Of a DNA stretch of 64,000 bases, positions 47,632-63,422 are shown piece by piece; position 1 is the stretch's first letter, and every line of letters begins with the position of its first letter. This stretch comes from Deltaproteobacteria bacterium (GTDB lineage Bacteria > Bdellovibrionota > Bdellovibrionia > Bdellovibrionales > JAMPXM01), in assembly GCA_017302795.1 (NCBI GenBank), contig JAFLCB010000003.1, positions 90,650 through 154,649 on the forward strand, written 5' to 3'. The position numbers and the translations under genes are program-made. The notes beneath the pieces were generated by a model. The model did no database searches. It was not told the DNA's origin and saw only the letters and a program-made list of their open reading frames with translations.

Positions 47632-48975
47632 TCACTTAGGATCAATCACCTGACCTAAGAAAAAGAACGCGCCGGTCGCGGAATCTTGGATGGCGAGGTA
47701 GAAGGGGCGATCGACGACCATTTCGAAGCTTGGGCGTGGGGCCATGCCGCGGGCGACTCCGCCGACGAGGGTGGCAGCTGCGGCTTTCACGCCGTTTTCG
47801 TCCCACTCGATCTTCGTGTTTTGTTTGATGATGCCGACTTTAGATGGTGGCGAACCTGGGCCGTCCATCTCGTCAAAGTTTGCCGAGTTTTTGAACAAGA
47901 AGTTTACGCCAAGGCCTTTTGTGACTTTGCAGTCTTCTTTCATCTCAACGCCATATTCAAACGTGAACTTTGGCATTGTGAGCTTTCCTGGCTGTGACAC
48001 AAGGTTGGTAAAGATCTCGCTCCATGTAGCTTTTGTCCAAATGCCAGCCGTCTGGTCGACTTGAAGCGTTTCGAAGTCCGCCGCATTTTTTGGTAAAACG
48101 ACGTAAGCACGAAGCGAACTTTTCGCCATTTCAATCTCGGCTACCTGGTAGTCTGGGTGATCCGCAAAACGAGCCACCTTGTTGCGGTAGATCATCTGCG
48201 CTTTCATCTTTTTTCCGTCGAGCTTTGTGAAATCGCCATCGAAGGGCTTTTCAAAGGGCATCGCCCACTGCGCTTCGATGTAGGTCGTGTTCAGAAGAAT
48301 CCACAAAAGATCCTTCATTCCATCGGCGTCGATGATTTCAGGAATCATCTTGTTGGTCATGTCGCTGGTCCATTTGTTGACGACGTCAGCTGACTTCGGA
48401 TCTTTGAAATCAAGCGACTTTGTTTCGGCGACGCCGTAGCCAGCTTTCATCTGGCTGACGAAAGATTTCTTAAATGTGTAGGGCGTTTTCGACGTTTCGC
48501 CATTTGTCGCCCAGATCGAGTTCTGAATCGACACAACAGCCGGGAGTTTTTCCCAGGCTGGCAAAGCTTTTCGCTCGGCATCCGTCAAAGGCTCTTTCGT
48601 GAGCGCTATTAAAAGGTTTTGGTTTTCTTTGTTGATTCCTGTGACGTCGGAAGTGGCTTCATAGCCTAGAGTTTCGATGAACTGTGTACGAGTTTTGCCA
48701 TCGGTTCCATTAAGGGCCATGGAAAGTGCGTAATGTGCCGAAATGGGTGACACGAGGACGTTTTTGGCGGTCTTTTCGCTCTTTAAAGATTCCTGCATGA
48801 GGCGGAAACCAAGGGCATTATTGCTTTCCACTACGGGCGAGTTCGCCCCAAGCGGGTTGGCAGCTGCGGTACTAGTCGCTATGGTGCCGGATAGAACGAC
48901 TCCAGTAGCGATTGTGGTCGCAATTGCCGCGTGCGAAGCCATATTTAGTACGTTTGCGAACGAAAATGCGCGCAT
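47632..48975 (-). CDS. Secreted serpin (serine protease inhibitor)
   Basis: 447 residues. An N-terminal signal sequence (hydrophobic AAIATTIATGVVLSGTIATSTAAA) is followed by a full serpin fold: KNVLVSPISAHYALSMALNGTDGKT (helix B region), SIQNSIWAT, LLWILLNTTYIEAQWAMPF and RPFYLAI at the end. The reactive-centre hinge is G395-VKAAAAT, and counting from P15 places P1 at Arg409 (VAR-GMA), predicting inhibition of trypsin-like proteases. The Ala-rich hinge P12-P9 is that of an inhibitory serpin. Bacterial serpins are uncommon and may protect the envelope against proteases of the host or the cell itself. AGAGG lies 7 nt before the ATG. Confidence 0.9.
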   Translation of the reverse strand: MRAFSFANVLNMASHAAIATTIATGVVLSGTIATSTAAANPLGANSPVVESNNALGFRLMQESLKSEKTAKNVLVSPISAHYALSMALNGTDGKTRTQFIETLGYEATSDVTGINKENQNLLIALTKEPLTDAERKALPAWEKLPAVVSIQNSIWATNGETSKTPYTFKKSFVSQMKAGYGVAETKSLDFKDPKSADVVNKWTSDMTNKMIPEIIDADGMKDLLWILLNTTYIEAQWAMPFEKPFDGDFTKLDGKKMKAQMIYRNKVARFADHPDYQVAEIEMAKSSLRAYVVLPKNAADFETLQVDQTAGIWTKATWSEIFTNLVSQPGKLTMPKFTFEYGVEMKEDCKVTKGLGVNFLFKNSANFDEMDGPGSPPSKVGIIKQNTKIEWDENGVKAAAATLVGGVARGMAPRPSFEMVVDRPFYLAIQDSATGAFFFLGQVIDPK

Positions 48976-49070: not shown

Positions 49071-49124
49071 GGTACCGCCTACATTTTGGTAGCGCATACG
49101 CGTTACCAAAATGTAGGCGGTACC
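49071..49124. repeat. GGTACC-bounded palindrome, copy 1
   Basis: A 54-bp near-perfect inverted repeat, arms starting GGTACCGCCTACATTTTGG and reading the same on the other strand, with a GCGC-type inner stem and short loop. The stop codon of the HTH-GHKL-STAS gene (49126-49128, minus strand) lies one base away. The outer arms carry CCGCC paired to GGCGG. Confidence 0.92.
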
Positions 49125-49125
49125 T

Positions 49126-50184
49126 TTAGGTGGCGCGGGCGCGGCGGATCATGAAGTCGACGGCGGCATTGGCATTTCGAACTTCTAGGACGATTTCGGG
49201 ATAGTGATTTTGGAAGACGCGAAAAAGTTCGTCGGCAAAGCCCTGGCCAAGTTCTTTGACGCCCGCGAAGTCGAAAATAATTCGATCGAACTTTTCCAGA
49301 CCAAAAGTTAGCCGCCGGGCTTGCGACCTAGACACGGCGCCAGTTTGCTTGAGGACTCTAACCGGATACTTTGAGCGATCGAATTCGAAACTTTCGTTCG
49401 CATACTCTTTAAATAGCTTTTCCAGGCTTCGACGCGTTTGGGTCTTGATCGCAAACGACACCTCGGTGCCCTTGATATTTCTCACCACTCCTAGTCGCTG
49501 ATCTTGTTTTTCGTTATCGAAGGTGAGCGCAAACTTTTGGCTTTTGATGCTAAAAACATCGGCGATTTTTGACGTAAAAAAGATGCCCTGTCCGCTGTGG
49601 GCATCAGGCGCAGTGGTTTGTTTCCCCTTTAAAAGGTGCTCGATGGCGTCTTCGTCGGTTTGTAGGCGGAATACTTTTTTGATGTTTTTAAAGATTCCGA
49701 TTCCGCGATCGCGAATAGTGAATTTAAAAACCCCGCGCTCGACTTCGACAAAGATTTCGGACGTCGTCGCCTGCGAGTGGTCGATGGCGTTATTCAACAT
49801 TTCACTGAATGAGTATTGGGCGATCCGAAAGGCCGTGTCTGACAGCTGAGATTTAAGATTTAGCTTCAGTGAAATTTCATCGAAAACTTTGTCCTCGGCG
49901 AGGTTCTTAAGCGTTTTACTCAATCGAAGCTGGTCGGCGCTTGTGCGATTTCTTGTCTTCGTTAGTAGAGAATAGGACGCGTTTTTAGTTGATCCTGTTC
50001 GTTCCAGCCAGCCGTCATCGACGGCTTTTTTTAGAACCCGTGCGGCTGTGGCGCGGCTGACGGAAAAGTGCTTTACGACCTCAGGCGAGGTGGTGGTTGC
50101 GCCGTCAGAGCCTCGCTTAAGCCAGATTCGCAGCGTATCAGCATTGAAGGGCGCGTTGGTGGTCAGTTTTGGCTTTTGTCTCAT
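49126..50184 (-). CDS. HTH - GHKL ATPase - STAS-like (DUF4325) regulator
   Basis: 352 residues from the ATG at 50184. Residues about 14-75 form a winged helix-turn-helix (TTTSPEVVKHFSVSRATAARVLKKAVDDGW). About 105-270 is a GHKL ATPase domain: N-box FSEMLNNAIDHS (Glu128, Asn131), DRGIGIF at 159 and SGQGIFFTSKIADVF at 198. The last 70 residues fit a STAS-like DUF4325 domain (FDRIIFDFAGVKELGQGFADEL). This resembles anti-sigma-factor-like kinases joined to a DNA-binding domain; ATP binding or Ser phosphorylation may control DNA binding. Its promoter is embedded in a symmetric array of TTGTCTC sites, suggesting autoregulation. Alternative starts up to 50310 exist but would cross the promoter. Confidence 0.82.
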   Translation of the reverse strand: MRQKPKLTTNAPFNADTLRIWLKRGSDGATTTSPEVVKHFSVSRATAARVLKKAVDDGWLERTGSTKNASYSLLTKTRNRTSADQLRLSKTLKNLAEDKVFDEISLKLNLKSQLSDTAFRIAQYSFSEMLNNAIDHSQATTSEIFVEVERGVFKFTIRDRGIGIFKNIKKVFRLQTDEDAIEHLLKGKQTTAPDAHSGQGIFFTSKIADVFSIKSQKFALTFDNEKQDQRLGVVRNIKGTEVSFAIKTQTRRSLEKLFKEYANESFEFDRSKYPVRVLKQTGAVSRSQARRLTFGLEKFDRIIFDFAGVKELGQGFADELFRVFQNHYPEIVLEVRNANAAVDFMIRRARAT

Positions 50185-50257
50185 AATTGTCTCATGTTCA
50201 GTTTTTATTTGTCTCGTGAGACAATTATATTTTGAGAACGAGACAATCGCAAGACAA
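50176..50257. promoter_or_regulatory. Symmetric six-half-site operator array
   Basis: TTGTCTC occurs at 50176-50182, 50187-50193 and 50209-50215. Its complement GAGACAA occurs at 50218-50224 and 50240-50246, and AAGACAA (one mismatch) at 50251-50257. Every pair is mirrored about the same axis at 50216.5, and successive half-sites are 11 or 22 bp apart, i.e. on one face of the helix. The inner pair abuts the -10 box and probable start site, the middle right site lies in the promoter spacer, the outer right site overlaps the -35 box, and the leftmost site overlaps the start codon region of the regulator gene. Autorepression by the HTH-GHKL-STAS protein is the natural inference. Confidence 0.85.
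50224..50252 (-). promoter_or_regulatory. Promoter of the HTH-GHKL-STAS regulator gene
   Basis: On the minus strand TTGCGA (50252-50247) and a perfect TATAAT (50229-50224) are separated by exactly 17 bp. Transcription should begin near 50217, giving a leader of about 33 nt to the ATG at 50184. The -10 box shares its last base with a GAGACAA half-site, and the -35 box overlaps the outermost half-site. Confidence 0.72.
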
Positions 50258-50396: not shown

Positions 50397-52034
50397 ATGA
50401 TTGCGACGTCGAATGTGAGCCTCAGGTATGGGGCGAAGAAGCTTTTTGAAGATGTGAACGTGAAGTTCACGCCGGGTAATTGTTATGGCCTGATCGGTGC
50501 GAATGGGGCGGGGAAATCGACTTTTTTAAAAGTTCTGTCGAAAGAAATCGAACCCAACACGGGCGAAGTCATTTTTGGTAAAGACCTCAGGCTTTCGATT
50601 TTAAAACAAAACCAATTCGAATTTGATGAAGTCGAAGTTCTAAAAACCGTGATGATGGGCAATCAAAAGCTGTTTAAGATCATCGAGGAAAAAGATGCTC
50701 TCTACGCAAAACCAGATTTCAGCGAAAAAGATGGCGAACGCGCAAGCCTGCTTGAAGCAGAGTTTGCAGAACTTGGCGGCTGGGACGCGGAAAGCGAAGC
50801 AAGCTCGATGCTGGAAGGTCTTGGGATTCCAACCAGCTCGCACACGAAACTTCTGAAAGAATTAGATCCTGGCGAAAAAGTAAAAGTCCTTTTGGCGCAG
50901 GCGCTATTCGGGAAGCCGGATATTTTACTATTGGACGAACCGACCAACAACTTAGACATCTATGCGGTTCAGTGGCTTGAAAAGTTCCTGATGGAATTTC
51001 AAAACACCGTGATCGTGGTCTCGCATGACAGGTATTTTTTAAACCGCGTCTGCACACACATCGCCGATATCGATTATAGCAAAATCAAAGTCTACACTGG
51101 TAACTACGATTTCTGGCGTCAATCGGCAGAGCTGTCTCAGCGTTTGTTATCAGACCAAAACCGAAAAGCGTCGGATAAAGCGGAAGAACTCAAGGCGTTC
51201 ATTCGTCGCTTTAGTGCGAACGCTTCGAAGTCGGCGCAAGCCTCTTCGCGCCAAAAGCAACTTGAAAAGCTTGAATTCGCGGACATGCCGGCTTCCTCGC
51301 GCAAACAGCCCTTTGTTGGTTTTGACTTAAAACGCGAACTTGGGAACGATGTTTTGGTGGTCGATAAGGTTTCAAAAACCATCGACGGCGAAATGGTTTT
51401 AAAGAACGTAAGCTTCACTTTGAAGAAAACCGACAAAGTGATTCTGCTTGGCCGAAATGAACTGGCGAAAACGGCGTTGTTAGAAATCTTAGCTGGCGAA
51501 ATGGAGCCAGACTCAGGAAGCGTTAAGTGGGGCATCACTGCGGTTCGAACATACTTCCCGTCGGATAACGGTCGCTTCTTTAAGAAATCTGACGACATTA
51601 ATACCCTGGTTGATTGGCTTCGTCAGTATTCCGAGGACAAAGACGAATCGTTCATCCGGGGCTTCCTTGGAAAAATGCTATTTAGTCGCGATGAGGGTTT
51701 AAAGCGTCCCGATGTTTTATCGGGCGGAGAAAAAGTTCGCTGCATGCTAGCGAAAATGATGCTTTCTGGCGCCAACGTTTTAATCCTTGATGGCCCCACG
51801 GCCCACTTGGACCTGGAAAGCATTTCGGCCGTGAACGAAGGTATCGTGCGATTTAAAGGTGTGGTGATCTTTACCACCCATGACCATGAGTTCATTCAAA
51901 CTTCTGCGACACGGATCATAGAACTGGGTGTACCTTCTGCTGGCGGTAAGGCGCCCGTCAAGGGAGTCACTGGACCCTGTTCGGTGATCGACGATCAGGA
52001 CATGACTTACGACGAATTCGTGGCGAGAAAATAA
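50397..52034 (+). CDS. ABC-F family ATPase, YbiT-like, with degenerate second site
   Basis: 545 residues with two ABC domains and no membrane segment. Domain 1: Walker A GANGAGKST (from residue 34), signature-like ELDPGEKVKV and Walker B LLLDEPTNNLD. A charged interdomain linker follows (ELSQRLLSDQNRKASDKAEELKAFIRRF). Domain 2: Walker A is GRNELAKTA (near 351, lacking the usual Gly-Ala-Gly), the signature LSGGEKVRC is intact, but Walker B reads LILDGPTAHLD with Gly466 in place of the catalytic Glu. ABC-F proteins bind the ribosome and act in translation or antibiotic protection. The pattern resembles YbiT/Uup, but site 2 looks hydrolysis-defective. A promoter was not identified in the 210 bp separating it from the divergent regulator. 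Confidence 0.87.
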   Translation: MIATSNVSLRYGAKKLFEDVNVKFTPGNCYGLIGANGAGKSTFLKVLSKEIEPNTGEVIFGKDLRLSILKQNQFEFDEVEVLKTVMMGNQKLFKIIEEKDALYAKPDFSEKDGERASLLEAEFAELGGWDAESEASSMLEGLGIPTSSHTKLLKELDPGEKVKVLLAQALFGKPDILLLDEPTNNLDIYAVQWLEKFLMEFQNTVIVVSHDRYFLNRVCTHIADIDYSKIKVYTGNYDFWRQSAELSQRLLSDQNRKASDKAEELKAFIRRFSANASKSAQASSRQKQLEKLEFADMPASSRKQPFVGFDLKRELGNDVLVVDKVSKTIDGEMVLKNVSFTLKKTDKVILLGRNELAKTALLEILAGEMEPDSGSVKWGITAVRTYFPSDNGRFFKKSDDINTLVDWLRQYSEDKDESFIRGFLGKMLFSRDEGLKRPDVLSGGEKVRCMLAKMMLSGANVLILDGPTAHLDLESISAVNEGIVRFKGVVIFTTHDHEFIQTSATRIIELGVPSAGGKAPVKGVTGPCSVIDDQDMTYDEFVARK

Positions 52035-52088
52035 GGTACCTCCTACATTTTGGTAGCGCGACTGCGCTAACAAAATGTAGGAGGTACC
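52035..52088. repeat. GGTACC-bounded palindrome, copy 2
   Basis: 54 bp beginning immediately after the TAA of the ABC-F gene. The outer arms have CCTCC paired to GGAGG, a compensated change relative to copies 1, 3 and 5; one inner mismatch (G opposite A) is present. The ribosome site of the next gene follows about 4-8 nt after the repeat. Confidence 0.92.
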
Positions 52089-53238: not shown

Positions 53239-53292
53239 GGTACCGCCTACATTTTGGTAGCGCAGGTGCGCTACCAAAATGTAGGCGGTACC
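53239..53292. repeat. GGTACC-bounded palindrome, copy 3
   Basis: 54 bp starting directly after the TGA of the zinc-ribbon methyltransferase gene. The stem is perfect over the outer arms and the TTTTGGTAGCGC/GCGCTACCAAAA inner arms, with a short central loop. Confidence 0.93.
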
Positions 53293-55916: not shown

Positions 55917-55970
55917 GGTACCTCCTACCTTTTGGTAGCGCAGGTGCGCTACCAAAAGGTAGGAGGTACC
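55917..55970. repeat. GGTACC-bounded palindrome, copy 4
   Basis: 54 bp starting 6 nt after the metF stop. Outer arms are CCTCC/GGAGG and the inner arm reads CTACCTTTTGG against CCAAAAGGTAG, where other copies have CTACATTTTGG against CCAAAATGTAG: an A-T to C-G exchange on both sides that preserves pairing. Confidence 0.93.
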
Positions 55971-63369: not shown

Positions 63370-63422
63370 GTACCGCCTACATTTTGGTAACGCAGGTGCG
63401 CTACCAAAATGTAGGTGGTACC
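63369..63422. repeat. GGTACC-bounded palindrome, copy 6
   Basis: 54 bp beginning with the last G of the metH stop codon TAG. One arm pair is CCGCC/GGTGG (a G-T wobble) and the inner stem has one A opposite C. The convergent methyltransferase gene ends 15 bases further on, so the hairpin could serve both transcripts. Confidence 0.92.

Follow-up and report, generated by a model that had tools for sequence, protein, structure and literature searches.

Autorepression via direct repeats is already known. The pho box of PhoB consists likewise of direct repeats of the OmpR/PhoB type, and iteron-bound replication initiators, which are autoregulated, recognize direct repeats of about 22 bp close to their own genes. 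PhoP of M. tuberculosis binds as a cooperative tandem dimer on a 7-bp motif with a 4-bp spacer, an assembly that can be extended to a trimer and a tetramer, and longer rows of the motif are bound more tightly (PMC4832192). In a 64,000-bp stretch of a Bdellovibrionales genome (here named the window), we analyzed an array of six half-sites at the promoter of a gene encoding a winged-helix protein with a GHKL ATPase and a STAS-like end (HTH-GHKL-STAS). The 11-bp pairs of this array match the 7-bp motif plus 4-bp spacer, and thus the 11-bp pitch, of the OmpR/PhoB type, a likeness of layout only (PMC4832192). Both have a winged HTH; however, in the protein described here the HTH is followed by GHKL and STAS-like parts without a receiver domain, and its arrays add 22-bp steps, a mirrored half in some homologues and one array-type target per genome. 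MarR-like autorepressors also combine a winged helix with a self-operator over the promoter, but a classical MarR protein occupies a palindrome as a small dimer, whereas here we propose chains on phased direct repeats. With respect to SpoIIAB/SpoIIAA and RsbW/RsbS/RsbV, the GHKL part is predicted to fold like SpoIIAB and the C-terminal part resembles an RsbS-type STAS domain, but here both parts and a DNA-binding domain are carried by one chain. In the literature searched, which held few subscription papers, DUF4325 and "STAS-like domain" appear only in passing mentions, and no work on the function of such proteins was found. What appears to be new is an HTH-GHKL-STAS protein with an array that is conserved in phase, changes in its letters and has a single target.

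The array is built from the heptamer TTGTCTC. Three copies lie on the forward strand, at 50176–50182, at 50187–50193 (11 bp from the first) and at 50209–50215 (22 bp from the second), and three on the reverse strand, at 50218–50224 and 50240–50246 (22 bp apart, each reading GAGACAA on the forward strand) and at 50251–50257, 11 bp further, where the half-site is TTGTCTT, with one mismatch (AAGACAA on the forward strand). The third and fourth copies are the left and right arms of the central dyad. All six half-sites of the original prediction were found in place, and the dyad axis that it had put at 50216.5 is indeed common to them, since their mirror placement about this point is exact. The spacings, described there as 11 and 22 bp, measure 11, 22, 9, 22 and 11 bp from centre to centre along the array. 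Based on local base composition, the chance of five exact TTGTCTC copies in 82 bp is about 7e-13 per site and 3e-6 per genome. With the flanking base included, the half-site shared by the copies becomes ATTGTCTC / GAGACAAT, a better description of the repeat.

The gene of the HTH-GHKL-STAS protein (352 aa) occupies 49126–50184 on the reverse strand. Its best promoter match on that strand is TTGCGA-17 bp-TATAAT, with a putative −35 at 50247–50252 and a putative −10 at 50224–50229, both assigned by consensus match only; the −10 hexamer is perfect and the −35 hexamer is imperfect. From these elements, transcription would probably begin at about 50217, which falls on the dyad axis. The array would thus extend over both promoter hexamers, the probable start close to the axis, the leader and the initiation codon (ATG at 50184). 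This agrees with the claim, made from the letters, that it covers the −35, spacer, −10 and start-codon regions, half-site 1 sharing one base with the start codon (50184–50182).

Taken together with the comparisons given below, we propose, with a probability of roughly 0.78, that the array serves as the self-operator of the HTH-GHKL-STAS protein, a dedicated autorepressor. One winged-HTH domain would bind each half-site (ATTGTCTC / GAGACAAT), and the protomers would lie in register on one helix face, in a head-to-tail row on each arm; this arrangement of the winged helices we infer by analogy with PhoP. At the central dyad, which coincides with the likely transcription start, the two rows would come together in opposite orientations. 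Once filled, the array would cover the −35, the −10, the start and the initiation codon and transcription would be repressed, so that the protein would hold its own level. Binding by the HTH-GHKL-STAS protein, cooperativity and repression are inferred, repression being the likeliest outcome of array filling. The imperfect −35, with half of the array upstream of or beside it, would also suit a protein whose binding to the array turns its promoter on, giving positive feedback and a bistable switch in place of a repressor. We regard such autoactivation as unlikely, because the −10 is perfect, half-sites also lie over the likely start, the leader and the start codon, and the gene-nearest copies of homologues are found between promoter and start codon, or on −35/−10-like hexamers, as repression predicts.

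How an autorepressor of this kind could be switched is speculative: the oligomer, and with it the switch, may be set by the ATP state or by contacts that join GHKL and STAS parts of neighbouring protomers. In a more specific version, which we put forward as a doubtful possibility, the GHKL and STAS-like parts would dock between chains, leading to an ATP-dependent head-to-tail assembly for which the 11/22-bp array acts as a filament seed, opened or closed by ATP or a ligand. If true, a partner-switch module would have become a one-component DNA switch dedicated to itself.

The protein consists of a winged HTH (about residues 15–75), a SpoIIAB-like GHKL ATPase (about 97–250) and a STAS-like DUF4325 domain (288–342). 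It belongs to DUF4325 (PF14213; 51.2 bits against a cut-off of 23, E 1e-13) and to the GHKL ATPases (HATPase_c_2; 29.2 bits against a cut-off of 27.4, E 1e-6), with intact N, G1 and G2 boxes and invariant ExxxNN, DxGxG and HSGxG motifs. The MarR_2 profile matched the N-terminal winged helix weakly (21.7 bits, cut-off 27). In the predicted structure (mean pLDDT 80), the nearest solved fold is SpoIIAB, and the C-terminal part, compared on its own, resembles STAS domains, among them RsbS (probability 0.99, though with an E-value of 0.05). Profile matches and predicted fold thus agree with the winged-helix GHKL ATPase with a STAS-like end that had been read from the translation. Comparison with a defence library gave only a weak likeness to the AbiEi HTH.

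Membership of related classes was also examined. As for a sensor histidine kinase, kinase matches are confined to the ATPase region and lie far below the cut-offs; the profile search of the protein gave no match to a HisKA-type phosphoacceptor domain, nor to a receiver domain with a phosphoacceptor Asp. As for an anti-sigma/anti-anti-sigma partner switch, the STAS loop lacks a phosphorylatable Ser/Thr. This loop, aligned by eye with the phosphoserine of SpoIIAA, reads GQ[GA]F, its Gln being invariant in 27 homologues, and an invariant Gln followed by Gly or Ala means that the classical phosphorylation site is missing.

The array adjoins a divergent ABC-F gene (50397–52034), whose start is about 140 bp away. 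An orthologue of the regulator in the same genus, L023, adjoins the same ABC-F gene, the pair being neighbours in two genomes of the genus. In the alignment with L023, half-site bases are identical at 37 of 42 positions versus 85 of 180 in the remaining intergenic region (p 7e-7), and L023 has one further copy, with the 11-bp pitch kept. Conservation of the half-sites upstream of homologues, set beforehand as the test of the original prediction, is therefore seen in L023; among wider homologues the spacing is kept and the half-site letters have changed. ABC-F loci of the same genus without the regulator contain no copies of TTGTCTC, and in genomes of the genus that lack the regulator even the best dyads carry two or more mismatches, indicating that the array goes with the regulator. 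A site of another host regulator, or one mainly serving the ABC-F gene and located here by chance, would fit the short distance to the divergent start and the shared neighbourhood in two genomes. We consider this very unlikely, given the ABC-F loci devoid of TTGTCTC and the arrays of equal spacing upstream of homologues with unrelated neighbours, and more than one site would be expected for a host regulator.

The regulator gene has a sporadic distribution, with homologues in 13 of 291 genomes of the phylum and 10 of 144 of the class; a sparse scan of GTDB contigs gave 2 hits, and 29 IMG/VR contigs carry homologues. Some of these IMG/VR contigs have adjoining terminase, tail or integrase genes, and many of the divergent homologues come from contigs of prophage type. 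No homologue was found in the plasmid and phage record collections, in which the positive control worked, and no conserved gene neighbourhood was found among the homologues. The neighbours of three otherwise distant homologues (L007, L020 and L028) are mutually similar proteins (25–26% identity), apparently ATPases of the AAA_14/DUF4143 type. The patchy distribution with prophage-type contigs recalls iterons, as do direct repeats in helical phase (about 22 bp) next to the gene for the protein presumed to bind them, and the protein could bind a replication, partition or recombination site, gene control being secondary. We give this only the slimmest chance: the profile search of the protein detected no domain of the Rep, Par or recombinase kind, there is no replicon, the gene analyzed here lies in a 415-kb chromosomal contig, the plasmid and phage records hold no homologue, and the array lies inside the promoter, with which it coincides in every lineage inspected.

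The phasing of the repeats was evaluated in 33 homologues, over the 174 bp surrounding each start; four near-duplicates had been removed from this set, which still includes some related clostridial-type members. A direct repeat that agrees in 7 of 8 bases and is spaced by exactly 22 bp occurs upstream of 21 of the 33 homologues versus 3 of 93 neighbouring-gene promoters (p 1e-12), and is missing in the other 12 at this threshold; dinucleotide shuffles of the homologue upstreams gave a mean of 2.9 with such a repeat and a maximum of 7. Strict 22-bp repeats (9 of 10 bases) were found in 14 of 33 homologues versus 0 of 93 neighbouring promoters. In some of the AT-rich clostridial-type homologues, the repeat may come partly from the similarity of −35 and −10. 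Same-strand [TG]ACAA cores are 11–12, 21–24, 33–35 or 44–45 bp apart in 46 of 53 pairs, in a test framed after the data were seen.

The letters of the half-sites vary among homologues, and spacings of 11–12, 22–23 and 33–35 bp persist. By eye, we assigned GAGACAAT to the own gene, GGTTACAAT to L011 and L059, CCTTACAAT to L010 and L027, CTTGACAAT to L019, L042 and L049, AGTTATAAC to L014 and L015, and GTTTACAAA to L034 and L050. The gene-proximal order of a 22–23-bp step, an 11–12-bp step and the start codon recurs in L006, L007, L010, L011, L027 and L059. At L034, L037, L050 and L052, half-sites such as GTTTACAAT contain both TTTACA (−35-like) and TACAAT (−10-like), and the 22-bp-spaced copies could there be promoter and operator at once. 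Upstream of L009, in genome G002, no array is clearly seen and there is just a weak inverted pair of ATCTTCGAC; control may have been lost in this case, or the gene may be read from another promoter.

A central dyad of identical geometry was found only at L006, L023 and L059, and at L011 with one mismatch. The cooperative self-operator originally proposed is supported, but phased direct repeats are its family-wide feature, and strict two-fold symmetry is not general. This bears on the possibility that the inverted repeats act as RNA, a leader hairpin controlling translation or termination. The whole minus-strand segment does fold well (−28.2 kcal/mol, z −6.1); however, such folding is expected of any six-site mirrored array, and most homologues have only direct repeats, hairpin-free, yet keep the helical phasing. 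Moreover, with the predicted transcription start close to the axis, only one arm would be present in the RNA. Control by a hairpin is thus highly improbable.

The number of targets was assessed by genome-wide pattern searches. In the 4.2-Mb genome that contains the window, zero-mismatch matches to the dyad and to both pairs, the one at 11 bp and the one at 22 bp, occur only at the regulator gene; a regulon search revealed no second array, weaker matches being at or near the control level. A search for other TTGTCTC-N2-GAGACAA dyads, which had been suggested as a check, returned no further zero-mismatch match in this genome. The best dyad in G311 is the orthologue's own, and in G269, G335 and G005 the arrays were matched only at the promoter of each homologue. 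Good array matches are therefore restricted to the regulator gene in 5 of 5 genomes tested, which suggests one array-type target per protein tested. In terms of arrays, this target would be the gene of the protein itself; sequence allows no verdict on single half-sites at other loci. That the purpose of a one-target regulator is unexplained is a point against the self-operator. Nevertheless, the sites kept in L023, the spacing kept in homologues and the lack of any comparable array elsewhere in the genome make a cooperative self-operator well supported at the sequence level, and a conserved candidate operator is present at the own promoter, as expected of an autoregulated protein.

We also compared half-sites with the recognition helices. 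QAxN helices go with GACAAT-type half-sites in 4 of 4 cases and VHRHL helices with TTATAA-type half-sites in 3 of 3. Distances between half-sites correlate with those between the HTHs (Mantel p 0.0005), but they correlate with divergence in the remainder of the protein too; once the latter is controlled, the covariation is not significant (partial Mantel p 0.06). The covariation of helix and half-site is suggestive and falls short of proof. Unusual in the system as a whole is that helical spacing is kept although the letters of the site change, and that each array tested fits its own gene only. For this class of DUF4325 proteins, patchy and spread over distant lineages, the array offers an operator that can be tested and a probable first role. 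It may also serve as a natural system for following how the target of a winged helix and its operator change jointly, and for asking whether DNA binding can be gated by a GHKL ATPase with a fused STAS domain.

Two further elements were observed around the regulator gene. Directly downstream, on the reverse strand, lies a serpin (serine protease inhibitor) gene (47632–48975; Pfam E 3e-67). A near-perfect dispersed palindrome of about 52 bp, REP-like and beginning GGTACC[TG]CCTACATTTTGGTAGCGC, has about 30 copies in the genome, with copies in the window at 49072–49123, 52036–52087, 53240–53291, 55918–55969 and 63370–63421. Copies sit after the stop codons of both the regulator gene and the ABC-F gene, suggesting that the palindrome may act as a terminator.
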